DNA of 32,023 nucleotides, taken from IMG/VR virus record IMGVR_UViG_3300022074_000211, positions 1 to 32,023 of that record. One strand, given 5' to 3'. This document shows positions 9,377 through 27,854 of the stretch, piece by piece. The translations under genes were made by a program, and so were the position numbers. Origin of the DNA: a virus. The first letter of the stretch is position 1; the number at the start of each line of letters is the position of its first letter. Below the pieces are notes generated by a model. It saw only the letters and a list, made by a program, of their open reading frames with translations, did not search any database and was not told the DNA's origin.

Positions 9377-9683
9377 AAACAACTCTAACAAAACAGATTA
9401 TAAGTTTAATGAAGGAGCTCTTATAGAAGAGCTTCAAGCTTATATTGATAAAACTTACGAGGGTCATTATTCAAAAAATAATTTTCAATCAACTGAATTT
9501 ATTATTGATTGTGACCATGGTATGGGGTTTGCTTTAGGAAATGTTTTAAAGTATACTCAAAGGTATGGTAAGAAAGATGGGTATAACAGAAAAGACTTAC
9601 TCAAAATTCTACACTATACTTTAATTGCTCTGTATGTACATGATGAAAAAAACTCTTTACAAACAGACGAAAATGTGTTATAA
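9360..9683 (+). CDS. DUF3310-like protein
   Basis: A 107-residue protein with the pattern G-F-A-L-G-N-V-L-K-Y-T-Q-R-Y-G-K-K then K-D-L-L-K-I-L-H-Y. This is typical of DUF3310 proteins (sometimes annotated as phage nucleotide-kinase-like), whose function is not established. Translation most likely begins at 9360, six bases after AGGAGA, and overlaps the end of cobS by 17 bases. A longer in-frame reading from 9297 lies wholly inside cobS. Its 3' end carries the gene 45 promoter. Confidence 0.8.
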   Translation: MLMKIRNNSNKTDYKFNEGALIEELQAYIDKTYEGHYSKNNFQSTEFIIDCDHGMGFALGNVLKYTQRYGKKDGYNRKDLLKILHYTLIALYVHDEKNSLQTDENVL

Positions 9684-9707: not shown

Positions 9708-10388
9708 ATGTCTAATGTTTTAAGTGAAGATACAATTAATGTATTGAAAAACTTTGCTACTATTAATCCTAATTTGGTATTCACACCAGGGCAAAAGGTT
9801 AAAACAATATCAGAGTCTAAAACTATTTTAGCTCAAGCAGATATTGTAGAAGATATGCCAAAAGAATTTGGAGTCTATGACTTAAACGAATTCTTATCAG
9901 TGTATAATCTTGTAGAACAACCAACCCTTGAATTTGAGGACAAATCAGTTTTAATCAATGGCGCAAACAATCAGGTTGTAAGATATTTCTTTTCTGAAAT
10001 TGAAATACTTACTACACCTCAAAAAGATATACAGATGCCAGATGCTGAACTAGGATTCACACTTACTGACGAGATTTTAAATCAAATCAGAAAAGCTGCT
10101 GCAGTTCTAGGTCATACAGAATTATCATTGAAAGGTGATAATGGTGTAATCACTGCTTCTGTAGTGGATACTAAGGATAATACAAGCAACTCTTTTAGTT
10201 ATGAACTAGATAGAGATAATGCTTGTGTAGAAAGTTTTAACTTTATCGTTAGTATACCAAATTTAAAATTATTACCAGGCGATTACTTTGTGAGCATATC
10301 ATCAAAGTTAATTTCTAATTGGACTAATAACAATTATCCAATAGAATATTTTATCGCTTTGGAAAAAAACTCAAGCTTTGGTGTATAA
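9708..10388 (+). CDS. 45: gp45 sliding clamp
   Basis: A 226-residue protein matching T4 gp45 (228). The shared elements are L-K-N-F-A-T-I-N-x at the N-terminus, Y-D-L-N-x-F-L, and F-N-F-I-V-S-I-P-N-L-K near the C-terminal third. gp45 forms a trimeric ring that tethers gp43 to DNA, and it activates late transcription by contacting gp55 and gp33. It has its own family A promoter and a GGAGA ribosome site seven bases before the ATG. In most relatives 45 is followed by 44; here two small genes and structured intergenic DNA separate them. Confidence 0.95.
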   Translation: MSNVLSEDTINVLKNFATINPNLVFTPGQKVKTISESKTILAQADIVEDMPKEFGVYDLNEFLSVYNLVEQPTLEFEDKSVLINGANNQVVRYFFSEIEILTTPQKDIQMPDAELGFTLTDEILNQIRKAAAVLGHTELSLKGDNGVITASVVDTKDNTSNSFSYELDRDNACVESFNFIVSIPNLKLLPGDYFVSISSKLISNWTNNNYPIEYFIALEKNSSFGV

Positions 10389-13886: not shown

Positions 13887-16406
13887 ATGTCTAAGTTTTA
13901 TACTAATGTGTCGCGTTATGGAAATATGATTCTACTACGCGGATATGACCACAACAAAAGAATCACAGAAAAAATTAAATACGAACCAAAGCTGTATGTC
14001 AGTACAAACAGACCTACAAATTGGAAAGCTTTGGATGGTACACCTGTGGCTGAAATACCATTTGACTCTATGAGATCAGCAAACGAATGGTATCAGAAAA
14101 ACAAACAAACCGCCGGACTCCATATCTTTGGAAATACCAGGTATATCTCAACCTTTATTAATGACTACTTTCCAGGTCAGATAGAATTCGATAGGAACAA
14201 AGTAAATGTGACTACTATCGACATCGAGGTTGCGTCCGATGATGGCTTTCCCGAGCCCGATAAAGCAGAGAATCCTGTAATATCAATAACAACTAAAAAT
14301 AATATTGATAACACATATCATGTGTGGGGTCTTGGCGACTATGATGTAGACAAATCTCTAATGAAAACTCACAGAGTTGTCTATCACAGATATCACACAG
14401 AAGCTGATCTATTAATTAATTACATTACATTTATATCTCAACCATCCATGACACCAGATGTTATTACTGGTTGGAATACTAGATTTTTTGATATACCATA
14501 TCTTGTCAATAGAGTACATAAACTTCTAGGCGAATCTTATGTAAAAAGAATGAGCCCTTGGGGTATGATCGATAGACAAGATGTGACAAAGATGGGAAGA
14601 ACACAAACCGCTTACGAGCTCAAAGGAATAGCTCAACTTGATTACTTAGACTTATTTCAAAAGTTTGGCTATTCCTACGGGCCACAAGAATCTTATAAAC
14701 TAGATCATATTGCTCATGTTGTACTTGGTGAGAAGAAACTAAGCTATGAGGAATATGGTTCATTACATACTTTATATAAACATAACTTCCAAAAGTTTAT
14801 TGATTATAATATCAAAGATGTTGAGTTGGTTGATCGCATAGAAGATAAGATGGGGTTAATTACTCTTTGTATGACCATGGCTTATAAAGGTGGTGTTAAC
14901 TATAATGACACCTTTGGTACAACAGCTATATGGGACACAATCATTTATCGTAAACTAAACGAAAACAAAATCGTTGTACCATTCATAGAAGATAAAGTTA
15001 AAACATTTTATCCAGGTGGTTTTGTTAAAGACCCACATGTTGGAATACATGAGAACCTGGTTAGCTTTGACTTAAACTCTCTATACCCATCAATAATTAT
15101 GCAATATAATATGTCACCTGAAACAATTGCCGAAGGTGAAGTATCTAAGGTTGACATAGAAGCAGTACTAACTAAATCTCAAAGACCAGACAATCATGGT
15201 AAAGCTTTGGCTGCTAATGGTCAGATATTCAATACCGATAAGGTTGGAATCATTCCTTTAATTATTGACGAGATGTATCAAGAACGTGTTGGCATAAAAG
15301 ACAACATGATTAAAGCACAAAAAGAATTACAAAAGGTGGATAAAAATGACAAACAAGAATTATACAGAATTGAGAAAGAAATCAGTATTGCAGAGAATAG
15401 ACAGATGTCTATCAAGATACTCCTTAATTCCCTTTACGGTGCTCTTGGTAATAAGTATTTTAGGTTTTTTGATCAGCGGGTGGCAGAGGCCATTACCCTC
15501 ACCGGACAACTTACAATACGATGGGCCGAATATGCACTTAATACCTACCTCAATAGAGCTATGCGAACAGAGACATGGAAAGACTTTGTCGTTGCAATCG
15601 ACACCGATTCGTTGTATGTATGCCTAGATGATTTAGTTCAAGCAATCAATCCAAAAAATCCAATAGACTTTTTAGATAAAGTTTCAGCTGAAAAGCTTGA
15701 AGCGGTTCTAGCACAATCTTATGATGAACTTTATAATATGTTTGGTGGTGTATCAAATCGTATGGTTATGAAAAGAGAAGTGATTGCTGATCGTGGCATA
15801 TGGACAGCTAAGAAAAGATATATTTTAAATGTATTAGATAACGAAGGTGTTAGATATGCTAAACCTAAACTGAAAGTTATGGGTATCGAAGCCATTAAGA
15901 GTTCTACACCAGAACCATGTCGTGAAGGTCTTAAAGAATTATTTAAAGTTATCATGTCTAAAGATGAAACAGAAGTACAGAAAGCTATCGAACAATTTAA
16001 AAATTATTTTAAAACACTAGGTCCAGATGCTATAGCATTTCCAAGAGGTGCATCAAAAGTAAAAGAATATCGTGACTCAACAAACATCTATAAGAAAGGT
16101 ACACCGATGCATATTCGAGCAGCTCTGCTTTATAACAGAATGATACAAGATTTATCACTGACCAAAAAATATACACAAATTAAAAATGGCGATAAGATAA
16201 AGTTTATTTACCTTAGAAAAGCAAATCCAATAAAAGAAAATATTATTGGCTTTGTTGACTTCTTACCAGAAGAATTTAACTTACATAAATACATAGACTA
16301 CGAACTACAATTTCAGAAAACATTTCTGGATCCAATAGAACCGATACTCGATGCTGTTGGTTGGAATTCGGAAGAAACAAATTCATTGGAGGATTTCTTT
16401 GCATGA
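13887..16406 (+). CDS. 43: gp43 DNA polymerase (family B)
   Basis: An 839-residue replicative polymerase (T4 gp43 is 898). Exonuclease motifs are D-I-E at 112-114, N-T-R-F-F-D near 200, and Y-N-I-K-D near 310. Polymerase motif A is D-L-N-S-L-Y-P-S-I-I, motif B K-I-L-L-N-S-L-Y-G, and motif C I-D-T-D-S. The C-terminus is S-L-E-D-F-F-A, matching the position of the T4 clamp-binding tail. No ribosome site precedes the ATG, which lies seven bases after the -10, so initiation is probably leaderless. Its 3' end carries the GGAGG used by the next gene, overlapping by ATGA. Confidence 0.97.
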   Translation: MSKFYTNVSRYGNMILLRGYDHNKRITEKIKYEPKLYVSTNRPTNWKALDGTPVAEIPFDSMRSANEWYQKNKQTAGLHIFGNTRYISTFINDYFPGQIEFDRNKVNVTTIDIEVASDDGFPEPDKAENPVISITTKNNIDNTYHVWGLGDYDVDKSLMKTHRVVYHRYHTEADLLINYITFISQPSMTPDVITGWNTRFFDIPYLVNRVHKLLGESYVKRMSPWGMIDRQDVTKMGRTQTAYELKGIAQLDYLDLFQKFGYSYGPQESYKLDHIAHVVLGEKKLSYEEYGSLHTLYKHNFQKFIDYNIKDVELVDRIEDKMGLITLCMTMAYKGGVNYNDTFGTTAIWDTIIYRKLNENKIVVPFIEDKVKTFYPGGFVKDPHVGIHENLVSFDLNSLYPSIIMQYNMSPETIAEGEVSKVDIEAVLTKSQRPDNHGKALAANGQIFNTDKVGIIPLIIDEMYQERVGIKDNMIKAQKELQKVDKNDKQELYRIEKEISIAENRQMSIKILLNSLYGALGNKYFRFFDQRVAEAITLTGQLTIRWAEYALNTYLNRAMRTETWKDFVVAIDTDSLYVCLDDLVQAINPKNPIDFLDKVSAEKLEAVLAQSYDELYNMFGGVSNRMVMKREVIADRGIWTAKKRYILNVLDNEGVRYAKPKLKVMGIEAIKSSTPEPCREGLKELFKVIMSKDETEVQKAIEQFKNYFKTLGPDAIAFPRGASKVKEYRDSTNIYKKGTPMHIRAALLYNRMIQDLSLTKKYTQIKNGDKIKFIYLRKANPIKENIIGFVDFLPEEFNLHKYIDYELQFQKTFLDPIEPILDAVGWNSEETNSLEDFFA

Positions 16407-17005
16407 TTAAAAAGAAAAGTACAATAATATGGAACTCATATTACACACCTGAACAATGTAAACAAATAGAAAAAATATGTTTAACCTTTCCAGAAAAAGA
16501 AGGTGTAGTACAAAACGTTAATACAGGTAAAATTAAAGATGAACAATCTAGTAATATTCGTAGATCAAAAGTTAGGTTTGTAAAAATAGATGGTAGTCAA
16601 GGTGACTTCTTAGGCTCAAACGAATTATACCAAGAGTTATATAAACTAATTGATAAGATTAATACTGAATATTTTAAGTTCGATATTACAGGTATTGATA
16701 GTATACAATACACAGAATATGATGGTGAATACGAAGGTCATTATGATTGGCATACAGATTGGAATTGGACTAATCCAATGAACCCACCTAGAAAATTAAG
16801 TATGACTATACAATTATCTGGTGGTGATGAATACGAAGGTGGTGATTTTGAAATAGCTCATGACTTAGAAAGAGGTGATCTAAATACAAAAACACTAGGA
16901 ACAGTAATTTGTTTCCCATCGTTTATGCCGCACAAAGTGCACCCAGTGATGCAAGGCTTGCGCAAATCATTGGTTGTATGGTTTACTGGTCCACGTATAA
17001 AATGA
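16403..17005 (+). CDS. 2-oxoglutarate/Fe(II)-dependent oxygenase (prolyl-hydroxylase-like)
   Basis: A 200-residue oxygenase of the P4H/PKHD type. The iron facial triad is likely H117-x-D119 (in H-Y-D-W-H-T-D) and H177 (in P-H-K-V-H-P-V), and the 2-oxoglutarate-binding Arg is R187 (Q-G-L-R-K-S). Such enzymes hydroxylate proteins, nucleic acids or small molecules; the substrate is unknown, and similar genes are frequent in marine myoviruses. The start at 16403 overlaps the gene 43 stop by ATGA, with GGAGG upstream inside gene 43. Direct coupling to the polymerase gene hints at a DNA-metabolism role, which is inference. Confidence 0.88.
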   Translation: MIKKKSTIIWNSYYTPEQCKQIEKICLTFPEKEGVVQNVNTGKIKDEQSSNIRRSKVRFVKIDGSQGDFLGSNELYQELYKLIDKINTEYFKFDITGIDSIQYTEYDGEYEGHYDWHTDWNWTNPMNPPRKLSMTIQLSGGDEYEGGDFEIAHDLERGDLNTKTLGTVICFPSFMPHKVHPVMQGLRKSLVVWFTGPRIK

Positions 17006-17070: not shown

Positions 17071-17364
17071 ATGAAAAATGTACAATTGTTAAGGTTAGTA
17101 TCTGGTGAAGAAATATTAGCCGACGTTGATCTCAATGGTATTGATACAGATACAGTTATTCTAAAAGATGCGCTATGTCTTATACCAGCAGGAGAAGGTA
17201 AGATTGGATTTATGCCATTCATGCCATATACAAAAGCCAAAGAAGGCTTAGAATTAAATATGAAACATATTATGTTTATGGTTGAACCAAATGATATGTT
17301 ATTAGAAAACCACAGAAATGCTACAAGTGAGTTAGCAGTACCAAGTAAGAAGATAGTGACATGA
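17071..17364 (+). CDS. Sm-like small phage protein, paralogue of the 1686 gene
   Basis: A 97-residue protein with L-R-L-V-S-G-E-E-I-L-A at the N-terminus, then M-P-F-M-P-Y-T-K-A-K and a short M-K-H-I motif. The order and spacing of these match the 131-residue protein at 1686. A small beta-barrel fold is likely; the function is unknown. It has its own family A promoter and GGAGA site, and its stop overlaps the next start (ATGA). Confidence 0.78.
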   Translation: MKNVQLLRLVSGEEILADVDLNGIDTDTVILKDALCLIPAGEGKIGFMPFMPYTKAKEGLELNMKHIMFMVEPNDMLLENHRNATSELAVPSKKIVT

Positions 17365-17762
17365 GTAAGAATTGGGTAAAAGACATACATAGTATGCAAA
17401 AGAAATACGAAACACATAAATGGGTTAAAATAAATCCTGAAAAATTAAGAGACTTTTTAAAGTTTAGAATTAATTTTTTACAAGAAGAATTAGACGAAAC
17501 TAGAAAAGCATACATGATGAAAGATAACGAAGAAATCGTTGATGGTCTAATTGACCTATGTGTCGTTGCAATAGGAACACTAGATGCATTTGATATTGAT
17601 GCTAATAAAGCATGGGATGCAGTATTAAAAGCTAATATGAATAAAGAAGTAGGTAGAAAAGAAACAAGACCTAATCCACTAGGTCTGCCTGATCTTGTAA
17701 AACCAGAAGGGTGGGAGGCTCCAAGTCACGAAAACAATCATGGTAAGCTTAACGATATTTGA
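17361..17762 (+). CDS. MazG-like nucleotide pyrophosphohydrolase
   Basis: A 133-residue all-alpha NTP-pyrophosphohydrolase-like protein. The metal-binding pattern L-Q-E-E-L-D-E-T is followed by V-D-G-L-I-D-L-C and a helix with A-W-D-A-V-L-K-A-N-M-N-K, as in MazG-family proteins. These hydrolyse (d)NTPs to monophosphates; the substrate here is not shown. It is the first of three MazG-fold-like proteins in the window (others at 19946 and 21099). It overlaps the previous gene by four bases and the next by 23. Confidence 0.82.
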   Translation: MSKNWVKDIHSMQKKYETHKWVKINPEKLRDFLKFRINFLQEELDETRKAYMMKDNEEIVDGLIDLCVVAIGTLDAFDIDANKAWDAVLKANMNKEVGRKETRPNPLGLPDLVKPEGWEAPSHENNHGKLNDI

Positions 17763-18657: not shown

Positions 18658-18818
18658 TTTTTTATACAGAAGCTCAATTAAATGAAGCTTATGAAAACTA
18701 TAAAAAAACATTACCACAAGCCACTAAGCTTTTAGACATAGAAAGCTTTAGAAGAATAATTTATGAACCACTTATAAACGAAATATATAATGACGACGAG
18801 AGCAATAATATTAGGTAA
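18654..18818 (+). CDS. Small hypothetical protein overlapping two genes
   Basis: A 54-residue, mostly helical and acidic protein. It begins on the stop codon of the 17740 gene (ATGA) and runs 29 bases into the 18790 gene in another frame. Without it there would be a 132-base gap in an otherwise continuous operon. No family is recognised. Confidence 0.6.
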   Translation: MIFYTEAQLNEAYENYKKTLPQATKLLDIESFRRIIYEPLINEIYNDDESNNIR

Positions 18819-19380
18819 TGGTGAATCACGAGAAGGATTTGATTACAGATCAAATTATTCAGATGCATTTGTCATAGGATGTAATGGTGCTTATAAAGAA
18901 TCAATAGATGCATTAGTATGTACCGATGCTTATATGCAACATCTGATTTATGAAACAGGATATTGTAAAGATCATTTATGCTTCTTTAGTGAATGGAATC
19001 CAATACCAGATTATGCAGTTGAAACAATAGCAGCTTCTTTCAATAAACCAATTATACAAAATGAAAAAATTTATAGTACCAGTGCTCAGGTAGCAGGAAG
19101 TGATGATTATGTATATGTCACATGGGTACAAAAAGAAGATATGGTTCGTTCTATCAAAGAAAAGATAATGTCATCTGGTTCAAGAGCATTAGAATTAGCA
19201 TGTAAGATGGACTTTGATGAAATTCTATTATTAGGATTTGATGGAATGGGAGCACAAAATATTTACCAAAAAGATAAAGGGTATGAAAGATCAACACCTA
19301 GAGAAGAATGGGTGGAAGAACGTAGATTAATTATAGAGCAATATTCTCATATAAATATAATAGATTTACAAACTGGTTAA
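18790..19380 (+). CDS. GT42 / DUF115-like protein (possible glycosyltransferase)
   Basis: A 196-residue protein. The N-terminus R-A-I-I-L-G-N-G-E-S-R-E-G-F-D-Y, then V-I-G-C-N-G-A-Y, and later S-G-S-R-A-L-E-L-A and E-I-L-L-L-G-F-D-G-M, follow the layout of GT42 sialyltransferases and DUF115 proteins (G-N-G-P-S-L ... C-N ... S-G ... G-x-D). The identification is by pattern and tentative. If it is a transferase it could belong to the DNA-modification block further down. The tRNA-Ala gene begins two bases after its stop codon. Confidence 0.5.
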   Translation: MTTRAIILGNGESREGFDYRSNYSDAFVIGCNGAYKESIDALVCTDAYMQHLIYETGYCKDHLCFFSEWNPIPDYAVETIAASFNKPIIQNEKIYSTSAQVAGSDDYVYVTWVQKEDMVRSIKEKIMSSGSRALELACKMDFDEILLLGFDGMGAQNIYQKDKGYERSTPREEWVEERRLIIEQYSHINIIDLQTG

Positions 19381-19945: not shown

Positions 19946-20278
19946 ATGAAAGAATCATTGAGAGTACTACAAGAATGCGCAGAGCTTCAAGCTAAAAAAT
20001 CACAAGATTATCAAAGTGACGAATCTACTGTCACTCAAGCTATGCACTATCGTAGAGGTGTAGATACAATACACGATATTATTTTAGGCAAAGTTGTTCG
20101 TGCAACTTCTTTACTAGAATCTGGCAATGAACCTAACTTTGAATCACTAGAAGATACTTACAAAGATTTAATTAATTATTCGTCTTTTGCTGTATCTTAT
20201 ATTCGTGGTAAGATGGAAGGTCAAGACCCTAACAGAAATATGTTCAACAAAAAGGTAAAGAATGTATCAAGTGAATAA
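19946..20278 (+). CDS. DUF1599 / nucleotide-modification-associated (Nmad1-like) protein
   Basis: A 110-residue helical protein. The pattern K-K-S-Q-D-Y near the N-terminus, I-I-L-G-K-V-V-R-A, and L-E-D-T-Y-K-D-L-I-N-Y-S near the C-terminus fits DUF1599, a MazG-related fold that has been linked to phage base modification. Its direct coupling to the dCMP hydroxymethylase gene (17-base overlap) fits a role in the nucleotide supply for modified DNA. Its biochemical activity is not established. Confidence 0.75.
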   Translation: MKESLRVLQECAELQAKKSQDYQSDESTVTQAMHYRRGVDTIHDIILGKVVRATSLLESGNEPNFESLEDTYKDLINYSSFAVSYIRGKMEGQDPNRNMFNKKVKNVSSE

Positions 20279-20939
20279 TACTGCAGATATTGCAGAAGTA
20301 TTTAAAAAACACCTAGCAGCAGAAAACTTTGTCACAGATAAAACAGGTCAAAAGACTATAGAAATAATCGGTGCATCTTTTGTTGCTGATCAGCCAGCAA
20401 TATTTGGTGAACCAAATGAAAGATATATTGAACATGAATTAATGTGGTATGATAGAAAGTCAACTAATGTTTATGATATATACGGTCATGAACAAGCACC
20501 AAAAGCTTGGTTATATTCTGCAAATAAACACGGTGAAATCAATTCTAATTATGGCCATCTAATTTATTCTGGTAAATACTTTAGACAATACGATAAAGTA
20601 TTAAAAGAATTACTTACAAATCCAGACTCAAGACGTGGCTCTATGATCTATCAAAGACCAAGTATTTGGAAAGAATACAAAGAGAATGGCAAGAATGATT
20701 TTATTTGTACCAATGCTGTGACATATTATATTCGTGATAATATGCTTCATGCTACAGTTCAAATGCGAAGTAATGATGTAGTCTTTGGTTATAAGAATGA
20801 TTATGCTTGGCAAAAAGTTGTTCAAGAAAGATTATTAGAAGATTTATATTATAATGGTACACACATCGAATTAGGCCACATTTATTGGCAAGTTCAAAAC
20901 TTACATGTATATGAGAGGCATTTTGATTTAGTAATATGA
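20262..20939 (+). CDS. 42: gp42 deoxycytidylate 5-hydroxymethylase
   Basis: A 225-residue thymidylate-synthase-fold enzyme very close to T4 gp42 (246). Matches include K-T-I-E-I-I-G-A-S-F-V-A-D, G-E-I-N-S-N-Y-G, N-P-D-S-R-R-G, the nucleophile C149 in D-F-I-C-T-N, and M-R-S-N-D-V-V-F-G-Y-K-N-D-Y-A-W. D180 stands where thymidylate synthases have Asn, the change that selects dCMP over dUMP in T4. The enzyme makes hydroxymethyl-dCMP from dCMP and methylene-THF. It stops about 24 residues before the T4 C-terminus. It overlaps the genes on both sides. Confidence 0.93.
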   Translation: MYQVNNTADIAEVFKKHLAAENFVTDKTGQKTIEIIGASFVADQPAIFGEPNERYIEHELMWYDRKSTNVYDIYGHEQAPKAWLYSANKHGEINSNYGHLIYSGKYFRQYDKVLKELLTNPDSRRGSMIYQRPSIWKEYKENGKNDFICTNAVTYYIRDNMLHATVQMRSNDVVFGYKNDYAWQKVVQERLLEDLYYNGTHIELGHIYWQVQNLHVYERHFDLVI

Positions 20940-21097
20940 AGAAGATATGGACAACTTGGAAATACGCAGTAGGTAGTTTTTCAGATGAACAAACAGAAGA
21001 GTACGACAATATAGTTGCGATAGTGAGAACTTTCATTGTTGGAATTAATATTATATGTGCATTCTTTATTATGGCAAATATAGTACACAATTGGTAA
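20936..21097 (+). CDS. Small membrane protein next to gp42
   Basis: A 53-residue ORF starting on the gp42 stop codon (ATGA). It has a basic, Trp-containing N-terminus, then F-S-D-E-Q-T-E-E-Y-D, then one hydrophobic span (I-V-G-I-N-I-I-C-A-F-F-I-M-A), ending H-N-W. I recall similar short proteins in marine T4-like phages, without known function. The MazG-like gene follows one base after its stop. Confidence 0.7.
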   Translation: MKKIWTTWKYAVGSFSDEQTEEYDNIVAIVRTFIVGINIICAFFIMANIVHNW

Positions 21098-21098
21098 T

Positions 21099-21350
21099 AT
21101 GAAAAAAAGAGAAGAGGCTTTAGTAATTACCATGGAAGAATGTGGTGAATTAATACAAGCTTGTAGTAAAGTAATCAGAACAAAAGAAGATACAAAATAT
21201 GTAAGAAATCTGCAAGATGAAATTGGAGATGTGTTAACTATGATAGAGATATTAAAGATGAGTGGTTTTGTCACAGATAAACAAATAGAAGATCGTATGA
21301 AACATAAAAAAGAAAAGTTAATGAAATGGAGTTTATTGTTTAATGGATAA
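21099..21350 (+). CDS. MazG-like pyrophosphohydrolase (candidate dCTPase)
   Basis: An 83-residue single-domain MazG-like protein. The pattern E-E-C-G-E-L-I-Q-A-C-S-K is followed by D-E-I-G-D-V-L-T-M-I-E, the E-E-x-x-E ... E-x-x-D metal-binding arrangement. In T4 the dCTPase gp56 removes dCTP so that only hydroxymethyl-dCTP is used. gp56 belongs to this fold class and is not seen here. Position between gp42 and dCMP deaminase makes this a candidate substitute, but substrate specificity is inference. Confidence 0.8.
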   Translation: MKKREEALVITMEECGELIQACSKVIRTKEDTKYVRNLQDEIGDVLTMIEILKMSGFVTDKQIEDRMKHKKEKLMKWSLLFNG

Positions 21351-21777
21351 ATGGGATAAAAGATGGTTAGATATTGCAGGGCTAGTAAGTTCTTGGTCTA
21401 AAGACCCAAGTACTAAAATTGCTGCTATAGCTGTAAAAGATAAAAGATTAGTTGCCACAGGGTATAATGGTTTTCCACGAGATATTGAAGATACAGACGA
21501 AAGATGGAATAACCGTGAAGAAAAGTATAAGTATGTAGTACATGCAGAAATGAATTGTATCTATAATGCGAATTATCATAACCAATCACTGAAAGGTGCG
21601 ACAATGTATATTGTTGGTTTACCGGTTTGCCATGAATGTGCAAAGGGTATTATTCAGGCAGGAGTTTCAAGAGTAGTTGCAACATTTGATGGTGTTCCAA
21701 TGAAATGGTCAAAAAGTAATGAGATAACAGAAAAAATGTTTAAGGAAGCAGGAGTGACATATGACAAAGTTCGATAA
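21343..21777 (+). CDS. cd: dCMP deaminase
   Basis: A 144-residue zinc deaminase. Zinc ligands and the catalytic Glu are H67-A-E69 and P-V-C96-H-E-C99; S-K-D-P-S-T-K-I and G-Y-N-G-F-P-R are typical of deoxycytidylate deaminases. It converts dCMP to dUMP for dTTP synthesis and competes with gp42 for dCMP. It is shorter than T4 Cd (193) and lacks its insert. It overlaps the MazG-like gene by eight bases and the next gene by 17. Confidence 0.92.
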   Translation: MDKWDKRWLDIAGLVSSWSKDPSTKIAAIAVKDKRLVATGYNGFPRDIEDTDERWNNREEKYKYVVHAEMNCIYNANYHNQSLKGATMYIVGLPVCHECAKGIIQAGVSRVVATFDGVPMKWSKSNEITEKMFKEAGVTYDKVR

Positions 21778-22054
21778 AAAAGAATTAGAAAATAGTAAAA
21801 GAATATTTAAATCAGCTACACCTAAATACGATGTTAGCTGGTATATAAAATGGGTTGCATCATGCTTTGTATTAGCAGCTATGTCAATGAGAGGAATAGA
21901 AGGCTTCCAAATTTATGATTTGATTTTATCTTTATGTGGTATTGCTGGTTGGCTAATCGTATCAGTATTGTGGAGAGATAGAGCACTTATTGTGTTGAAT
22001 GGAGTAGGCTTAATATTTTTATTAAGAAATTTATTTGTATACTTGACAACATAG
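21761..22054 (+). CDS. Three-span membrane protein
   Basis: A 97-residue protein with a charged first 25 residues and then about three hydrophobic segments (W-Y-I-K-W-V-A-S-C-F-V-L-A-A, L-I-L-S-L-C-G-I-A-G-W-L-I-V and I-V-L-N-G-V-G-L-I-F-L-L). The layout resembles small inner-membrane proteins of marine T4-like phages with no known role. It begins within the end of the deaminase gene. Its 3' end carries the -35 region of the glycosyltransferase promoter. Confidence 0.75.
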   Translation: MTKFDKKELENSKRIFKSATPKYDVSWYIKWVASCFVLAAMSMRGIEGFQIYDLILSLCGIAGWLIVSVLWRDRALIVLNGVGLIFLLRNLFVYLTT

Positions 22055-22071
22055 ATTTAATGTGTTATAAT
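22043..22071 (+). promoter_or_regulatory. Family A promoter for the glycosyltransferase, with almost no leader
   Basis: TTGACA at 22043-22048, a 17-base spacer, then TATAAT at 22066-22071 in TGTGTTATAATATA. The ATG at 22079 follows the -10 by seven bases, so the message probably has no 5' leader, as at gene 43. Confidence 0.75.
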
Positions 22072-22078
22072 ATACGTT

Positions 22079-23449
22079 ATGATTGGTAAAAAAATTGCAA
22101 TAGTTTTTGGCAAGGGTCTAGACGGCTGTGGTGTCGAAAAGTTTGGTTATGAATGGCAAAGATATGATCCAGAAAATATCGATGTCTTTGCATTAAAAGA
22201 AAGAGCCTTCAATCGTGGAGGTACTCACATATCTAATTATGTAGAATTCAAACCAGACGAGATGTCTACAATCGCAGAAAGATTAAACAATGATTATGAT
22301 ATTGTTATAATCAATTCATATCCGAGTCCGATGCACAATCAAAAAACCGTCACAAGTTTTTATCGTGATCTAATATTAAAAATAGAAAAACCAATTCTAG
22401 TAAGTATGATGCATGAGATTATACAATCTAACTATGATCGTATTCCATTACAAGTTGCGATCTCAAATGCAGCAGATGTAGTATTTAATTTTTCTACACA
22501 TACAAATTATGCAAAAGACATGGCAAGAATTCTTACTAATAAAAAATTAGGTGAGAGAATTGCTAGAATGAAATTACCATTGACACTAGATGATTTTCAG
22601 AAGTGGAGAATTACACACGATCAAAAGAAAAGAAGATGTATCTATGCAGGCCGTTGGTCATCTATGAAACAACCTAATGTGATAATAGAACTATGGGAAA
22701 GAGATAAAGACTTTCACTATGCATTACATGGTATAGAAAAATCTATTGGTGCTAAGTTTGATGTTATTGACCCTTGTGATTATTTTAGAAAGTATACAGG
22801 TACATATAACTATGAATCAGAAAGATGCGAATGCTTTGGAGAGTTTGATTATAACCAAGGTATGACATTAATATCAGAATCTATGTTTGGTTATAGTGGA
22901 TTTCATTTACCAAAGATGCCACATAATTATGGCGATAGATTTGAATATGCACAGATGGAAATAATTGCATGTGGTACAGTTCCGATATTTGATAAACATT
23001 ATAGTGAACATAACAAAGCAATTGATGGTAGTTTATTTGCAGAACACGATATTGCAATATGGAATGACCGCAATAATTTAGACAAAACAATAGAAAAGAT
23101 ACATGAGGTTGCAGACGACCATACAACATACTATCAATATAACGAAGATGGTTTAGAATTTTTACACCAAGAAGCTGAATCAAGTGTGGTTATACCTAAC
23201 ATGATAAGACATATCTGTATTATGGGTAAACAAGAAGATAAGTGGAATACACAGGACTTATTGAGAGAAGTTTATAAGACTGAAGAAGTATATGACGAGT
23301 TTGATTATTTACTAGATAATAAGATCACAGCTCTCGGTGTAAAAGAAATTGATAATGGTGATCTAAGTTATTTTGAAAAGAAGGCAAGATTAATACATAA
23401 GAACGTGAGTGAATTAAATACGCAATCATTGGAGGATTTTTTTGGATAG
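22079..23449 (+). CDS. DNA glycosyltransferase, T4 alpha-glucosyltransferase-like
   Basis: A 456-residue GT-B-type protein matching T4 AGT (400) at several points: G-K-G-L-D-G-C-G-V-E-K-F (T4 A-R-G-L-E-G-C-G-V-T-K-F), N-D-Y-D-I-V-I-I-N-S, Y-A-Q-M-E-I-I-A-C-G-T-V-P-I-F near 292-306, and a late E-F-L-x-Q-E-A-E-S-S block. AGT transfers glucose from UDP-glucose to hydroxymethylcytosine in DNA. The sugar used here is not shown and may differ. About 70 extra C-terminal residues end in S-L-E-D-F-F-G, the same tail as gp43. It lies downstream of gp42. It lacks a Shine-Dalgarno sequence and starts seven bases after a -10. Confidence 0.85.
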   Translation: MIGKKIAIVFGKGLDGCGVEKFGYEWQRYDPENIDVFALKERAFNRGGTHISNYVEFKPDEMSTIAERLNNDYDIVIINSYPSPMHNQKTVTSFYRDLILKIEKPILVSMMHEIIQSNYDRIPLQVAISNAADVVFNFSTHTNYAKDMARILTNKKLGERIARMKLPLTLDDFQKWRITHDQKKRRCIYAGRWSSMKQPNVIIELWERDKDFHYALHGIEKSIGAKFDVIDPCDYFRKYTGTYNYESERCECFGEFDYNQGMTLISESMFGYSGFHLPKMPHNYGDRFEYAQMEIIACGTVPIFDKHYSEHNKAIDGSLFAEHDIAIWNDRNNLDKTIEKIHEVADDHTTYYQYNEDGLEFLHQEAESSVVIPNMIRHICIMGKQEDKWNTQDLLREVYKTEEVYDEFDYLLDNKITALGVKEIDNGDLSYFEKKARLIHKNVSELNTQSLEDFFG

Positions 23450-23798
23450 TATAGTAATCGATATAGACGATACAATCTTATTTACAAATCATCAATACAA
23501 AGATGCTAAACGTAAATATGGTGAAGCAAAACCAAATGATATAGTAATCAAAGGTATAAGAAAGCTTCATGCAAAAGGTTATAAGATTATATTACATACA
23601 GCCAGACGAATGTTAACCTTTGATGGTGATATTGAAAAGATTATAGCTGATGTCGGAGACATAACTACATCATGGTTAGAAAGACATGAGGTGCCCTACG
23701 ATGAACTCGTTTGGGGTAAACCATATAGTTCAACCTATTATGTCGACGATAAAGCAATGAATTTACAAGAGTTTAAAGAATGGACAAATTCAATTTAA
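23442..23798 (+). CDS. HAD-superfamily phosphatase-like protein
   Basis: A 118-residue HAD protein. Motif I is D-I-D-D-T near 7-11, motif II L-H-T-A-R, and the C-terminal motifs are W-G-K-P with Y-Y-V-D-D-K-A. It is short and cap-less, like the small phosphatases of sugar and capsule loci. The start is TTG, six bases after GGAGGA; the overlap with the glycosyltransferase end is eight bases. Position between a glycosyltransferase and a nucleotidyltransferase-kinase suggests it acts on a phosphorylated sugar intermediate, but this is inference. Confidence 0.82.
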   Translation: MDSIVIDIDDTILFTNHQYKDAKRKYGEAKPNDIVIKGIRKLHAKGYKIILHTARRMLTFDGDIEKIIADVGDITTSWLERHEVPYDELVWGKPYSSTYYVDDKAMNLQEFKEWTNSI

Positions 23799-25267
23799 TA
23801 ATACCAGCTGCAGGAGCAGCCACGAGACTAAGACCTCTATCCTCGAGCACGTCGAAGGTAATGGTACGTGTGAATGGTAAACCTTGCCTTGACTATATCA
23901 TAGAGGCAGTCAATGGATCCGTTGACGAAGTAGTTGTTGTGGATGGCCAATTCACTGATATTCGCGAATATTGTAAAGTGAAACATCCGAAGGTAAGGTT
24001 CGCCAACCAGCCATCATTAGATGGTCCAAGAGATGCAATTAAGATTGGAATGGAAGCTTTAGAAGATAGTGGAAAGCCAGTTGTTGTATGGCTTGGTGAT
24101 GCAATTATCTTAGAAAAAGGTATGCCATTAGGTCATGACTTTTTATTAACTAAAAGAGTTGAAGATCAATCAGCATGGTGTATGTGGGATGGTCGAAATT
24201 ATTATAATAAACCAAAACAACCAGTAGAAAATTCTAATGCTCTAGTTGGTTTATATTCTTTTAGTGATGGTGTTGCAGCTTTAAATGCTTTTAGTAATAC
24301 AGATGGTTATGATATATCAGATGCTCTTATTGAATATGTTATAGATAAAGATACAACGTTTGCAGAATATATCACAGAAAAATGGTACGATATTGGTGAC
24401 CTTCCAACATATTATAAAACATGTGCAGCATTATTAAACACAAAAGCTCGTGCATTTAATAATTTAAATTTTGATTCTGATTTAGGTACAATCAGAAAAT
24501 TACCAGACTATCATGACAAACATTCATTAACAACATTAAGAGAAGAAAAAGAATGGTATGAACATCTTACTCCAGAGCAATCTATGTTTACACCTAGAAT
24601 ATTACCACATCCTGTTGATTTAATTATGTCATACGAAAGTGGCACTTTACTTAGTGATCTTATGTTATACGACAATATACCTAATAGTCATTGGGATTAT
24701 ATTATGGATAGAATCTTTAATATTAAATTAAAATATTTTAACAATAGAGTAGAAGATAAAGACATTATAGACAGTTTTGATGAATTATCTAAAAAGATGT
24801 GGTGTGATAAAACAGAAGAAAGAGTATGTAATGAAATGTATGATAGCCATGTCGGTGCTAATCTAATAAAAAGAGCTGAATGGATTTATAAAAGAACATC
24901 GCCCATATCTGGAATGCATGGTGATTTACATTTTGCAAATATATTATATAATCAACAAACAGATCAATTTAAATTTTTAGACCCACGTGGTAATTATGGT
25001 GGTTGCATTGGAACAATAGGCGACGATATTTATGACTGGGCCAAATTAGCACACGATTGTTATTGGGGTTATAACTCAATTGTTGCTGATGTACCACAAA
25101 ACGAATATGTTAAAGATTTATTTACACGTAAACTAGATGAATATAATTTAGATAAAGATTTAATATTGTATGGTGGATTAGTATTATTAGGTACTTGTAT
25201 ACCATTGCATTATGAAGATGCAGATAGACAAAAAAGAATGATGGAGATTATTAGAAATGAAATATAG
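23780..25267 (+). CDS. Sugar-phosphate nucleotidyltransferase - small-molecule kinase fusion
   Basis: A 495-residue two-domain protein. The N-terminal 210 residues are a nucleotidyltransferase (A-A-G-A-A-T-R-L-R-P-L ... K-V-M-V-R-V-N-G-K-P, later W-L-G-D-A). The C-terminal part is an aminoglycoside/choline-kinase-like domain with H-G-D-L-H-F-A-N-I-L near 380-389 and L-D-P-R-G-N. Paired enzymes of these kinds act in sequence, as AmgK-MurU do on MurNAc or LicA-LicC on choline. A kinase plus nucleotidyltransferase would convert a free sugar or alcohol into an NDP-activated donor. It overlaps the HAD gene by 19 bases. The substrate is unknown. Confidence 0.82.
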   Translation: MDKFNLIIPAAGAATRLRPLSSSTSKVMVRVNGKPCLDYIIEAVNGSVDEVVVVDGQFTDIREYCKVKHPKVRFANQPSLDGPRDAIKIGMEALEDSGKPVVVWLGDAIILEKGMPLGHDFLLTKRVEDQSAWCMWDGRNYYNKPKQPVENSNALVGLYSFSDGVAALNAFSNTDGYDISDALIEYVIDKDTTFAEYITEKWYDIGDLPTYYKTCAALLNTKARAFNNLNFDSDLGTIRKLPDYHDKHSLTTLREEKEWYEHLTPEQSMFTPRILPHPVDLIMSYESGTLLSDLMLYDNIPNSHWDYIMDRIFNIKLKYFNNRVEDKDIIDSFDELSKKMWCDKTEERVCNEMYDSHVGANLIKRAEWIYKRTSPISGMHGDLHFANILYNQQTDQFKFLDPRGNYGGCIGTIGDDIYDWAKLAHDCYWGYNSIVADVPQNEYVKDLFTRKLDEYNLDKDLILYGGLVLLGTCIPLHYEDADRQKRMMEIIRNEI

Positions 25268-26507
25268 TTCAATTATACCACTGATCGGTGGAGAGAGTAT
25301 AGCGGTAATGAATAAGTTAAATGGACAAATGCCAGAGGAAGTTTTATCTTACACTGGCTTTGTAGATAACGATAGTCATTACATTAATTATTTAAGAGAT
25401 AAAGGGTGGGAAGGTAAATACACTTTATTAGATGAAAAGTCAAACCATAAACCAAAGAAAGTAGATATCGTAAATACAGTTTGTCCTTGTGCAGGTCTAT
25501 CATCACTATCACAACATACAGTTCGTAATGAAGGCCACAATGACTGGATGTTTGAATCAGCACATTATGTTTTAGGTAAGATACAACCAAGAGTGTTTTG
25601 GGGTGAGAACGCACCAAGACTAGCAATGGAACCCGGTAAAGAGGTTGTAGCTAAATTAAGAGATATTGGTAAAGAGTATGGATATACGTTTAGCATCTAT
25701 AAAACTAAATCTTTAGTACAAGGATATAGCCAAATTAGAGATAGAACATTTTACTTCTTTTGGAAAGGAGATCAAACACCTTTACTAGATTATATACACA
25801 GACCACATGAACTAATTGAAGATACTATTTCAAATGTTGTAAACAAAAAAGACGACCCTATGAGCGTTGTTCCTAATCAGAAAAAACCATCAGACGATCC
25901 AGTTTACAAATATTTTTTAAATAAAACTGGTATGACTCATGCTGAGTTTGTTGCAGCATTACCTGGACCTAATATGAATTTATTTGATTATATGGATTAT
26001 ATTGGAGGAGAGACTAAATGTGTCGGACCAAATACAGGTAAAACATATGCTGGTTGGCTAGAGGTATTAGAACATTTAAAAGGTAATGATGATGAACATT
26101 CTGCTAGATGGGCAAAGAGTATAGAAAGAATGGTTGCTAAACAAAAAGCTGGTGGTAGCGTTATGAGAAAGAGTACCACATTTCCAAAGGGACATATCGG
26201 AGCATTTGTTGGCCACTATCCATCTATGTTAACACATCCAGTAGAAGATAGATATTTAACTTATAGAGAAATGTTATCTATAATGTATCTGCCAGAAGAT
26301 TTTGAATTATTACATCCAAAGAAATTTCAAAATCATATATGCCAAAATGTACCAGTCAAAACTGCTGAAGATATGATGGAACAAGTTATAAAGTTCTGTA
26401 ATAATAGATTAGATTTAATTGATACTGATTATATTTTACAAGATAATAAAAGAAAGTGCCATGAATATGCAGAAAACAGTTTACAATTGGACCAGTTTAT
26501 GGTATAA
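25257..26507 (+). CDS. Cytosine-C5 DNA methyltransferase-like protein
   Basis: A 416-residue protein with C5-methyltransferase motifs in order: a diverged motif I (I-G-G-E-S-I-A-V near 10-17), motif IV with P77-C78 (C-P-C-A-G-L-S), motif VI E-N-A near 117-119, motif VIII Q-I-R-D-R at 159-163, and motifs IX-X near the end ([14 protein letters not shown]). The catalytic Cys is present. In a phage whose cytosine is already C5-hydroxymethylated, ordinary 5mC synthesis on its own DNA would be blocked, so its role is puzzling. The stop codon lies within the -10 of the rpsU promoter. The start overlaps the previous gene by 11 bases. Confidence 0.83.
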
Positions 26508-26541: not shown

Positions 26542-26802
26542 ATGCCAAGTGTTGATTTAAGACCAAGAAAAAGACATCCAAAAGATAAACGTCCAGCAAG
26601 ACCAATGCCTTTTGATGTCGGATTAAGAAAATTTAGAAAATCCTGTGAGAAAGCAGGTATTGTTCAAGAGGTACGTAAAAGAGAATTTTACGAGAAGCCT
26701 ACAGCAAAAAGAAAACGAAAAAAAGCCGAAGCAAGAGCTAGACATCTTAAAGCTTTAAGAATGGAACAAGCTTCAGGTTTTGCAATGAGGAGAAGTAGAT
26801 AA
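26542..26802 (+). CDS. rpsU: Phage-encoded ribosomal protein bS21
   Basis: An 86-residue bS21 homologue. The core [18 protein letters not shown] is followed by R-K-R-E-F-Y-E-K-P and a basic Lys/Arg-rich C-terminus ending M-R-R-S-R. bS21 sits near the anti-Shine-Dalgarno end of 16S rRNA in the small subunit. Phage copies have been reported in several marine phages and are thought to swap into host ribosomes. AGGAG lies seven bases before the ATG; the frame further upstream lies inside the methyltransferase gene. It is coupled to uvsX by TAATG. Confidence 0.93.
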
Positions 26803-27854
26803 TGTCAATAATGGATAAATTGAAAAAGAATAGTAAAGTAAAAAGTACTGATATATTATCAGAATCTATATTATTCGGAGAGAAGGATATGATTCCTACA
26901 GATGTGCCTATGGTAAACGTTGCTTTATCAGGAGATATGGACGGAGGCTTGTCATCAGGTCTTACAGTATTGGCAGGGCCGTCTAAACATTTTAAGACAA
27001 GTTTTGCTTTACTTATGGGTTCAGCCTATATGAAGAAATATCCAGAAGCTGTTATGCTTTTCTATGATTCAGAATTTGGTTCTCCACAGAACTATTTTGA
27101 ATCTTTTGGTATTGATACAGATAGGGTATTACATACACCGATTCAAAACGTTGAGGAATTAAAATTTGACTTAGTTAGCCAATTAGAAAATATTGAAAGG
27201 GACGATAAAGTAATTATTGTAATCGATTCAATTGGTAACTTAGCATCTAAAAAAGAATTAGAAGATGCACTGAATGAAAAATCAGTTGCTGATATGACAA
27301 GAGCTAAAGCATTGAAGGGATTGTTCCGTATGGTCACTCCTTATCTCACTATGAGGAACGTCCCTTTACTTGCTGTCAACCACACCTATCAAGAAATAGG
27401 ATTATTTCCTAAAGCAATTGTATCAGGTGGTACAGGTATTTATTACTCAGCTGATAATATTTGGATTATTGGTAGGCGTCAACAGAAAAAAGGTACTGAT
27501 GTCACAGGATATCACTTTATAGTTAATGTAGAGAAATCAAGGTTTGTAAAAGAGAAATCTAAAATACCAGTTGAAGTCACTTGGGAAGGCGGTATCGCAT
27601 CCTATGGTGGAATACTAGATGTAGCTTTAGCCGGCGGCTATGTGACCAAACCAAATGTTGGTTGGTACGCAAGAGTTAACAAAGATACAGGTGAAATTGA
27701 AGATGGTAAAGTACGAGAAAAAGATACTAAGACTAAAGAGTTTTGGGATCCAATCTTTGAAGAAACTGACTTTAAAGAATTTGTAAAATCTTATTATTCT
27801 ATTGGTCATAAACCATTACTTGACATTGACTTAGACATAGTAATGGAGGAATAA
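26802..27854 (+). CDS. uvsX: UvsX recombinase (RecA-like)
   Basis: A 350-residue RecA/UvsX protein (T4 UvsX is 391). Strong matches are M-V-N-V-A-L-S-G, the Walker A region A-G-P-S-K-H-F-K-T-S near 58-67, F-Y-D-S-E-F-G, Walker B V-I-D-S-I-G-N-L-A-S-K-K, D-M-T-R-A-K-A, and N-V-E-K-S-R-F-V-K-E-K-S-K. It forms filaments on ssDNA and carries out strand exchange with UvsY and gp32. The acidic C-terminal tail of T4 UvsX is mostly absent. It is coupled by single-base overlaps to the genes on both sides. Confidence 0.96.
   Translation: MSIMDKLKKNSKVKSTDILSESILFGEKDMIPTDVPMVNVALSGDMDGGLSSGLTVLAGPSKHFKTSFALLMGSAYMKKYPEAVMLFYDSEFGSPQNYFESFGIDTDRVLHTPIQNVEELKFDLVSQLENIERDDKVIIVIDSIGNLASKKELEDALNEKSVADMTRAKALKGLFRMVTPYLTMRNVPLLAVNHTYQEIGLFPKAIVSGGTGIYYSADNIWIIGRRQQKKGTDVTGYHFIVNVEKSRFVKEKSKIPVEVTWEGGIASYGGILDVALAGGYVTKPNVGWYARVNKDTGEIEDGKVREKDTKTKEFWDPIFEETDFKEFVKSYYSIGHKPLLDIDLDIVMEE

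Follow-up and report, generated by a model that had tools for sequence, protein, structure and literature searches.

A putative cytosine-hypermodification cassette with an AGT-family glycosyltransferase and predicted sugar-activation genes beside gp42 in an uncultured T4-like phage

The window, i.e., the whole stretch of 32,023 nucleotides that was analyzed (IMG/VR record IMGVR_UViG_3300022074_000211), comes from the genome of a marine-type T4-like phage as a fragment of 32 kb, and its DNA polymerase was closest to those of Kyanoviridae and Pelagibacter phages. The polymerase gene gp43 (13887..16406; PHROG, 1012 bits), the product of which ends in NSLEDFFA, lies on the + strand, as do the genes for the gp45 sliding clamp (9708..10388; PHROG E=7e-68), a presumed tether partner, for UvsX (26802..27854; PHROG E=3e-90), and for the pathway enzymes described below. 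The initial annotation had reported CobS-like, Hsp20, and bS21 genes in the window, together with gp42, MazG, dCMP deaminase, DUF1599, and a homologue of T4 α-glucosyltransferase (AGT) at 19946–23449; all of these genes were found again. Moreover, the feature runs past position 23449 into genes for a HAD phosphatase, a nucleotidyltransferase/kinase (NTPkin), and a C5-cytosine-methyltransferase-like (C5-MTase-like) protein, which follow the AGT gene in a chain of overlapping ends. The PADLOC matches were all of the methyltransferase kind. Phage C48C1, which has the nearest polymerase, carries neither a thymidylate synthase (TS) homologue nor an AGT.

The gp42 homologue (20262..20939) had T4 dCMP hydroxymethylase as its best solved structure (1b49, E=2e-69), compared with 6e-10 for the best thymidylate synthase. 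The nucleophile C149 and the dCMP-selecting D180, both pointed out initially, were aligned to T4 C148 and D179 and were invariant in 86/86 related loci. The residues W82, S94, D145, D171, and Y218, which differ in the RB69-type enzyme, had T4-type equivalents in the window gp42 and in 85–86 of the 86 loci. Practically every locus has a gp42 of the T4 type across the positions tested, rather than a 5-hydroxy-dCMP synthase of the RB69 type (55% vs 28% identity). Judged from these residues, there is little doubt that the phage would make hydroxymethylcytosine (hmC).

Several nucleotide-pool genes accompany gp42. The DUF1599 gene (nucleotide modification associated domain 1; 19946..20278; Pfam PF07659, 30 bits with a cut-off of 25) keeps its position beside gp42 in the relatives, and genes for a small MazG-type NTP pyrophosphatase (21099..21350; Pfam, 23.8 bits vs a cut-off of 22) and dCMP deaminase (21343..21777; Pfam E=6e-18, which passes the cut-off; PHROG E=1e-44) lie on its other side. 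A PRA-PH/MazG-type NTP pyrophosphatase (17361..17762; Pfam PRA-PH, 36 bits; PHROG pyrophosphohydrolase), the gene for which was found in 50 related loci, is a candidate dCTP-removing enzyme. The PRA-PH Pfam also accompanies TS homologues in cytosine-modified MetaGPA contigs (PMC8670742). In the case of the remaining T4 functions, gp56 dCTPase, denA, denB, and alc had no match in the relatives G001 (100 kb searched) and G010 (152 kb), and the MazG, PRA-PH, and DUF1599 proteins may serve as stand-ins for gp56. Similarly, neither the T4 gp1 hm-dCMP kinase (PF21448) nor, by family search, homologues of TMP kinase and CMP kinase were found in 10 long, possibly incomplete contigs of up to 152 kb. 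The sole kinase-like lead after these searches was a DUF3310 protein (9297–9683), which we take to resemble T7 gp1.7.

The AGT-family DNA glycosyltransferase (22079..23449) matched Pfam AGT (PF11440) with 57.5 bits against a curated cut-off of 25, the PHROG α-glucosyltransferase with E=1e-72, and, among solved structures, T4 AGT with E=8e-25. The homology to T4 AGT had been proposed initially, with a structural alignment as the check, and the comparison bore it out. For the AlphaFold model (pLDDT 91.6), Foldseek returned T4 AGT with E=1.7e-25 and TM scores of 0.72/0.82 (next family, E=2e-10), the top nine PDB matches were all T4 AGT, and the fold was the AGT variant of GT-B. In T4 AGT, G15, R204, and E311 are reported to bind the phosphate and ribose of UDP (PMC6024577); these residues and T4 E306 and K209 are all kept in the window as G18, R192, E294, E289, and K197, respectively. 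As for the glucose-contacting histidines H114, H116, and H140, by which a glucose-specific AGT is recognized, the first is kept as H112, while the positions of H116 and H140 are taken by I114 and F138. Both losses run throughout one clade, termed class II, which is represented in the window by H112-E113-I114 and F138. The family matches and the fold strongly suggest that this enzyme glycosylates DNA.

The next two genes point to sugar activation. The HAD phosphatase, of the EcbF/BcbF kind (23442..23798; NCBIfam E=3e-24, below the cut-off), is 30% identical to RB69 ORF051c (E=4e-10), and the following gene (23780..25267; Pfam NTP_transferase, 58.6 bits) encodes a sugar-1-phosphate nucleotidyltransferase of the RmlA/GalU fold fused to an APH/choline-kinase-like kinase. 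The fusion protein aligned with RB69 ORF053c and ORF052c in hhalign (95% and 92%), and its AF2 model (pLDDT 90.5) matched RmlA/UDP-Glc pyrophosphorylase in Foldseek (E~1e-12). The activated compound might instead be a CDP-alcohol, e.g., CDP-choline or CDP-glycerol, in a LicCA-like manner, because the best PDB sequence match of the nucleotidyltransferase was a CTP:phosphocholine cytidylyltransferase (E=8e-8), the kinase domain weakly matched choline kinase, and a CTP_transf_like protein replaces the nucleotidyltransferase in related cassettes. However, RmlA/GalU sugar nucleotidyltransferases ranked first by fold search and its partner, AGT, is of the GT-B kind, and a CDP-alcohol was considered very unlikely.

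With AGTs dereplicated at 90%, HAD and nucleotidyltransferase genes were located near 9 of the 15 without H140 and 0 of the 28 with H140. Two more of the 15 belong to Bacillus phage G, in which both genes are annotated beside the AGTs. The p-value of 9e-6 for this association overstates independence, because class II is a single clade and ancestry confounds the comparison. Four dereplicated AGTs with F140 (L134, L142, L147, and L161) lacked the triad of kinase, HAD, and nucleotidyltransferase. The triad is kept while its fusions and nucleotidyltransferase family vary, and it accompanies AGT or the unrelated glycosyltransferase c43 interchangeably. HAD–NTPkin loci without gp42 nearby numbered approximately 11, and gp42 was absent from 7/8 such contigs.

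These genes could also be accommodated by plain T4 chemistry, in which UDP-glucose is the donor for hmC glucosylation by AGT and the HAD and nucleotidyltransferase do no more than raise the UDP-glucose supply. The homology and fold of AGT, the retained H112, and the fold of the nucleotidyltransferase domain, shared with RmlA and UDP-glucose pyrophosphorylases, agree with such a role; UDP- or dTDP-glucose is a frequent product of enzymes with the RmlA/GalU fold, which counts against a non-glucose sugar. However, H116 and H140 are lost throughout class II, AGTs that keep H140, such as that of S-TIM61, occur without the pair, UDP-glucose needs neither kinase nor phosphatase, and the same pair serves the unrelated c43. 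Plain T4 chemistry was thus regarded as rather unlikely, and a sugar other than glucose on hmC appears probable.

The AGT ends in SLEDFFG (codons at 23426..23446, +), which is close to the SLEDFFA end of the window's own gp43 and resembles the gp45 sliding-clamp motif (cf. gp43 SLDFLFG). Under a motif definition made after the motif was first noticed, clamp-like tails were counted in 7/7 gp43, 5/8 AGT, and 6/6 C5-MTase-like proteins after dereplication, against a background of 3/227. No such tail was present in the gp42, deaminase, HAD, NTPkin, epimerase, and UDP-Glc dehydrogenase families, and the tail appears essentially confined to enzymes expected to act on DNA. In a pull-down, T4 AGT binds gp45, whereas T4 BGT does not (PMC13216743). 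If correct, the tail would be a sequence rule separating DNA-modifying from sugar- or nucleotide-modifying enzymes, and it would also cover families without a Pfam match (c24 and c15).

The tail also bears on the target of the cassette. The phosphatase subfamily of the HAD is associated with capsules and capsule operons have similar sugar genes, so the target could be a surface polysaccharide or protein, with the proximity of gp42 being coincidental. Against this stand the restriction of the AGT family and its fold to DNA glycosyltransferases, the polymerase-like tail, and the position of the cassette, always between gp42 and uvsX among replication genes; a surface target was considered highly improbable.

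The last gene of the cassette encodes the C5-MTase-like protein (25257..26507; Pfam DNA_methylase, 51.9 bits), which has the clamp-like tail LQLDQFMV. The invariant motifs PC, EN, and QxRxR rule out that it is a dead relic, and gp42 lay upstream in 39/39 loci.

The gp42–uvsX interval was found to be a slot, into which close relatives swap AGT, another glycosyltransferase, TAGT, or HMUDK/INO1 cassettes; T4 has the order gp42-bgt-segA-uvsX at the same place. In uncultured T4-like contigs, at least six alternative decoration cassettes occupy this one site. The initial annotation took the CobS-like, Hsp20, and bS21 genes to suggest the marine T4-like group, in which the pathway is not known to be standard. 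This holds for cultured ones, in which it is uncommon (the nearest isolate gp42 is from a Klebsiella phage, 54.6%), but not for uncultured T4-like contigs, in which it is common (566 gp42 relatives in one scan), and the S-TIM cyanophages carry a "DNA alpha-GT". A total lack of AGT in cultured marine phages is ruled out by S-TIM5/61. A direct description of hmC in marine T4-like phages was not found in the literature searched.

Taken together, hmC and DNA glycosylation are very likely in this phage. The initial proposal of glycosylated hmC DNA is well supported by the type of gp42, the fold of AGT, the operon, the conserved linkage, and the tail, while glucosyl-hmC, with which the pathway ends in T4, is in doubt because the clade has lost H116 and H140 and has its own sugar-activation genes. 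In the proposed mechanism, gp42 would produce 5-hydroxymethyl-dCMP, the pyrophosphatases and dCMP deaminase would hold free dCTP low and supply dCMP/dUMP, and gp43 would incorporate the hydroxymethylated nucleotide. AGT, tethered to the gp45 clamp via its polymerase-like peptide, would then glycosylate hmC in new DNA. A nucleotide-sugar produced through the neighboring genes, rather than UDP-glucose from the host, is the probable donor: the kinase domain would phosphorylate a sugar phosphate at C1, HAD would strip the phosphate already present, and activation of the sugar-1-phosphate would fall to the RmlA-like domain. This logic is that of bacterial heptose activation. The modification presumably protects against host nucleases, and relatives would refill the slot with other decorating enzymes. 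The sequences, families, predicted fold, lost residues, linkage, and tail motif are shown directly, and the activities, the binding to the clamp, and the nature of the sugar are inferred from them. We assign this whole explanation, i.e., hmC, a clamp-tethered AGT, a cassette-made sugar donor, and a refillable slot, a probability of roughly 0.63. Weighing against it are the T4 genes missing from the contigs searched (gp1, gp56, denA, denB, and alc), the F140 AGTs without the triad, the HAD–NTPkin loci without gp42, the confounding by ancestry, and the after-the-fact definition of the clamp motif.

Most of what is known of cytosine hypermodification comes from enteric T4-like phages, and the present analysis indicates that in uncultured T4-like contigs the trait is both widespread and modular. 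The AGT clamp-like tail, the gp42–uvsX swap slot, and the C5-MTase-like/gp42 linkage are new here. We give even odds to the wider proposition that uncultured marine-related T4-like phages carry interchangeable cytosine-hypermodification cassettes in a single slot beside gp42, with DNA-acting enzymes sharing a polymerase-like clamp-binding tail, and that the window version yields an hmC glycoside with a phage-made sugar new to DNA. If so, many undescribed DNA bases are predicted, and phage resistance to host nucleases and possibly a sequencing bias against such phages may be accounted for. Moreover, the phage route to pentose or other sugar donors for DNA becomes testable with two to three small genes.

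Compared with T4 gp42/AGT/BGT, the window shares a T4-type dCMP hydroxymethylase, an AGT-fold enzyme, dCMP deaminase, a modification gene between gp42 and uvsX (BGT in T4), and the AGT–gp45 association, suggested by motif here and by pull-down in T4 (PMC13216743). It differs in the two lost histidines, its sugar-activation pair, the C5-MTase-like partner, and the single overlapping operon, and gp1, gp56, denA, denB, and alc were not found in the relatives searched. The arabinosylation cluster of RB69 (Mosigvirus) likewise has a HAD and an RmlA/APH fusion, between gp43 and gp42/uvsX. Its TS homologue produces 5-hydroxy-dCMP (PMC13390438), unlike the T4-type gp42 of the window, its candidate transferase, ORF003c, shows no relationship with the window AGT (hhalign probability 0.6%), and its arabinose-5-phosphate isomerase had no match among the related loci searched.

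Isolates hold more distant parallels. The gp306/gp313 region of Bacillus phage G has two class II AGTs (31% identical), a HAD, a sugar nucleotidyltransferase, a C5-MTase-like protein (gp301), and a TS homologue whose residue at T4 position 179 is Asp; unlike the window, this phage is a jumbo phage, not T4-like, and lacks the clamp-like tail. Its DNA chemistry was not found in the literature searched. Along with an AGT (annotated as DNA alpha-GT), the cultured marine cyanophages S-TIM5 and S-TIM61 have a C5-MTase-like protein and a "ThyA" in which the dCMP-type Asp is present, but their AGT keeps the T4 histidines, the genes are dispersed, and no HAD/nucleotidyltransferase adjoins. The seawater isolate Pseudoalteromonas phage vB_Psh_XG4, the record of which is unannotated, carries gp42-HAD-NTPkin-GT-GT-C5MT-like-gp56 within 7.5 kb, with c43 in place of AGT. 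Finally, MetaGPA found a TS homologue with Asp177, PRA-PH, and dCMP deaminase on cytosine-modified coastal and sewage contigs; the decorating enzyme characterized was an hmC carbamoyltransferase, unlike the window AGT, and contigs with the window's Pfam set were cytosine-modified (PMC8670742).

The window is a 32 kb IMG/VR virus fragment with a GC content of 33% and carries a T4-like replication block (gp55-gp47-gp46-gp45-gp44-gp62-regA-gp43-primase-uvsX-gp41). The nearest polymerase to that of the window was found in the Kyanoviridae phage C48C1 (51.6%), followed by those of Synechococcus and Pelagibacter phages. Based on these affinities and on the presence of Hsp20, CobS-like, and bS21 genes, the phage can reasonably be placed among the marine-type T4-like phages. 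A 2OG-Fe(II) oxygenase (16361-17005) is encoded 3' of the polymerase gene, and an MptE-like/PHROG 30607 protein (18790-19380) is absent from most relatives. The genes from DUF1599 through the C5-MTase-like gene lie on a single strand, most of them with overlaps of 4-19 bases. The initial annotation proposed glycosylated hydroxymethylcytosine DNA for this phage; its gene set, gp42 residues, and glucosyltransferase homology hold, while the chemistry stands only in part, as glucose is doubtful and the T4 economy appears incomplete.

For the dCMP hydroxymethylase homologue gp42 (20262-20939, + strand), the top solved structure was T4 dCMP hydroxymethylase (E=2e-69), with the top thymidylate synthase at 6e-10. 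The nucleophile C149 and the dCMP-selecting D180 noted earlier were aligned to T4 C148/D179, the roles of which are established (PMC6400193), and together with E60, Y96, R123, and H216 they were invariant among the 86 related loci listed. The RB69 homologue produces 5-hydroxy-dCMP (PMC13390438). The window gp42 is 55% identical to the T4 enzyme and 28% to that of RB69, and is T4-type at the five positions separating the two. Given these residues and this identity, hydroxymethylcytosine would be the base to expect. The window also shares its domain set (D177-type thymidylate synthase homologue, PRA-PH, and dCMP deaminase) with contigs found to contain modified cytosine in the MetaGPA experiment (PMC8670742).

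The product of 22079-23449 (+ strand) exceeded the cut-off of the alpha-glucosyltransferase (AGT) family and matched the T4 AGT structure (E=8e-25). Structural comparison bore out the homology: with the AlphaFold model (pLDDT 91.6, pTM 0.90) as query, the top nine matches were all T4 AGT, and ordinary GT-B enzymes were weaker by more than 10 orders of magnitude. The functional residues of T4 AGT (PMC6024577) were mapped by sequence alignment of about 95 homologues (MAFFT). The nucleotide-binding G15, R204, and E311, plus E306 and K209, are retained. Of the glucose-contacting histidines, H114 is kept (H112), while H116 and H140 are replaced by I114 and F138. phmmer and a later MAFFT run agreed on H114 as the kept residue, and an earlier MAFFT run placed it at H116; thus, that one of these two and H140 are lost is firmer than the identity of the one that persists. 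Asp-His and H140 are retained in class I (T4, S-TIM61, and most contigs) and are missing from class II, comprising the window clade, a 40%-identical set, and Bacillus phage G.

In contigs with sufficiently long flanks, class II AGTs are always adjoined by an HAD phosphatase and a nucleotidyltransferase. After dereplication at 90% identity, the two genes were near 9/15 AGTs without H140 vs 0/28 with it (Fisher p=9e-6, a value that ignores kinship, class II being one clade). Both phage G copies were scored negative, yet genes annotated as HAD and sugar nucleotidyltransferase lie alongside them. In the window, the HAD gene (23442-23798) is followed by a nucleotidyltransferase fused to an APH/choline-kinase-like domain (NTPkin, 23780-25267; both + strand), the model of which (pLDDT 90.5) resembles RmlA and UDP-glucose pyrophosphorylases. 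The architecture is shared with the arabinosylation cluster of RB69, which adjoins gp43: ORF051c is an HAD like that of the window (30%, E=4e-10), and ORF053c/052c each match one half of the fusion (hhalign, 95% and 92%). At other loci, it is the HAD that is fused to the kinase, and an unrelated CTP_transf_like protein serves as the nucleotidyltransferase. The survival of the triad through reshuffled fusions and nucleotidyltransferase replacement suggests a pathway to an NDP-sugar, in which kinase, phosphatase, and nucleotidyltransferase would convert a sugar-phosphate through a sugar bisphosphate and a sugar-1-phosphate. In over 30 loci, the HAD-NTPkin pair also occurs with c43, a transferase unrelated to AGT. 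A sugar other than glucose is probable, and by analogy with RB69 a pentose is the best lead. The pair was also observed between the polymerase and uvsX without gp42 (L231, L238-L240, L245, L250-L252, and L268), in some cases with a TAGT-like gene, where some other base is possibly glycosylated.

The gp43-uvsX region is known to be plastic in enteric T4-likes (PMC6024577, PMC8056088), and the T4 order is gp42-bgt-segA-uvsX. Among contigs with gp42 relatives, at least about 80 carried alternative cassettes in the gp42-uvsX interval; as the scans used short peptide patterns and covered at most 80 loci, counts are lower bounds biased to close relatives. The cassettes were AGT-HAD-NTPkin, c43-HAD/kinase-CTP transferase, AGT-epimerase-UDP-Glc dehydrogenase, c53-epimerase (c53 being another glycosyltransferase), TAGT alone, and two further types. 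INO1-HAD-HMUDK-c15 (L024, L029-L031, L049, L050, and L054) combines an INO1-like protein and HMUDK_hel (5-hmdU-DNA-kinase-like) beside a dCMP-type gp42, which suggests phosphorylated or inositol-linked hydroxymethylcytosine. c15-PALP-c24 (L041, L059, L064, L066-L068, L075, L078, and L093), with a PALP-like PLP enzyme and a clamp-like tail on c24, which lacks a Pfam match, suggests a pathway for amino-group hypermodification of hydroxymethylcytosine. Different cassettes occur in phages L220 and L025, whose replication proteins are 77-91% identical to those of the window.

T4 gp43, gp55, and gp33 carry SLDFLFG, SLDFLY, and NTLDFLL at or close to their C-termini, and the window gp43 and AGT end in NSLEDFFA and QSLEDFFG. 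By a rule formulated after the pattern had been seen, a motif of this type was found at the C-terminus of 43/43 gp43, 27/31 AGT, 31/33 C5-MTase-like, 9/9 HMUDK-like, 12/16 c24, 12/23 c15, and 7/15 TAGT proteins in the related loci listed, with 5/866 among other proteins. After dereplication, the counts were 7/7, 5/8, 6/6, 1/1, 4/5, 4/7, and 2/2, with 3/227 among others; the AGTs without it were those of phage G and Geobacillus phage GR1. In the listed loci, it was never found in gp42, deaminase, DUF1599, HAD, NTPkin, epimerase, UDP-Glc dehydrogenase, INO1, or PALP proteins, and it was absent from the glycosyltransferases c43 and c53. The motif separates enzymes with DNA as their expected substrate from those presumed to use free nucleotides or sugars. 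The clamp gp45 binds T4 AGT but not BGT (PMC13216743), which fits a predicted clamp-binding tail on the window AGT; no earlier report of such a tail was found in the literature searched. More distant AGT homologues (L169, L172, and L142) end in QLNLF or QLLLF, similar to the beta-clamp motif of bacteria, which suggests that the tail may match whichever clamp is in use.

The C5-MTase-like protein (25257-26507, + strand) follows most cassettes, and gp42 was present in 39/39 of the listed loci with 6.5 kb upstream. A C5 methyltransferase role would be puzzling if cytosine is hydroxymethylated. Isolate records with the protein number only 8 and fall into three kinds (S-TIM cyanophages, phage G, and XG4); in a representative from each kind, the synthase homologue carries the dCMP-type Asp. 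In cyanophage S-TIM61, a 'ThyA'-annotated protein (L101:20616-21452) carries this Asp at T4 position 179 and is probably a cytosine-specific enzyme. The unannotated record of the seawater isolate Pseudoalteromonas phage vB_Psh_XG4 holds a gp42-HAD-NTPkin-GT-GT-C5MT-like-gp56 cassette (L099:100-7552).

No gp1, TMP kinase, or CMP kinase family was found in ten long contigs, and no gp56, denA, denB, or alc in two relatives; as these contigs are possibly incomplete, such negatives are weak. The sole candidate for the absent hm-dCMP kinase is a DUF3310 protein (9297-9683), whose family is annotated as nucleotide kinase in phages. Judged by gene content, the T4 economy as a whole is not reproduced in the window group. 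T4-type cytosine glycosylation is rarely shown by isolates of this group, and the predicted system of the window is a variant of it, with a probable non-glucose sugar and a clamp-like tail.
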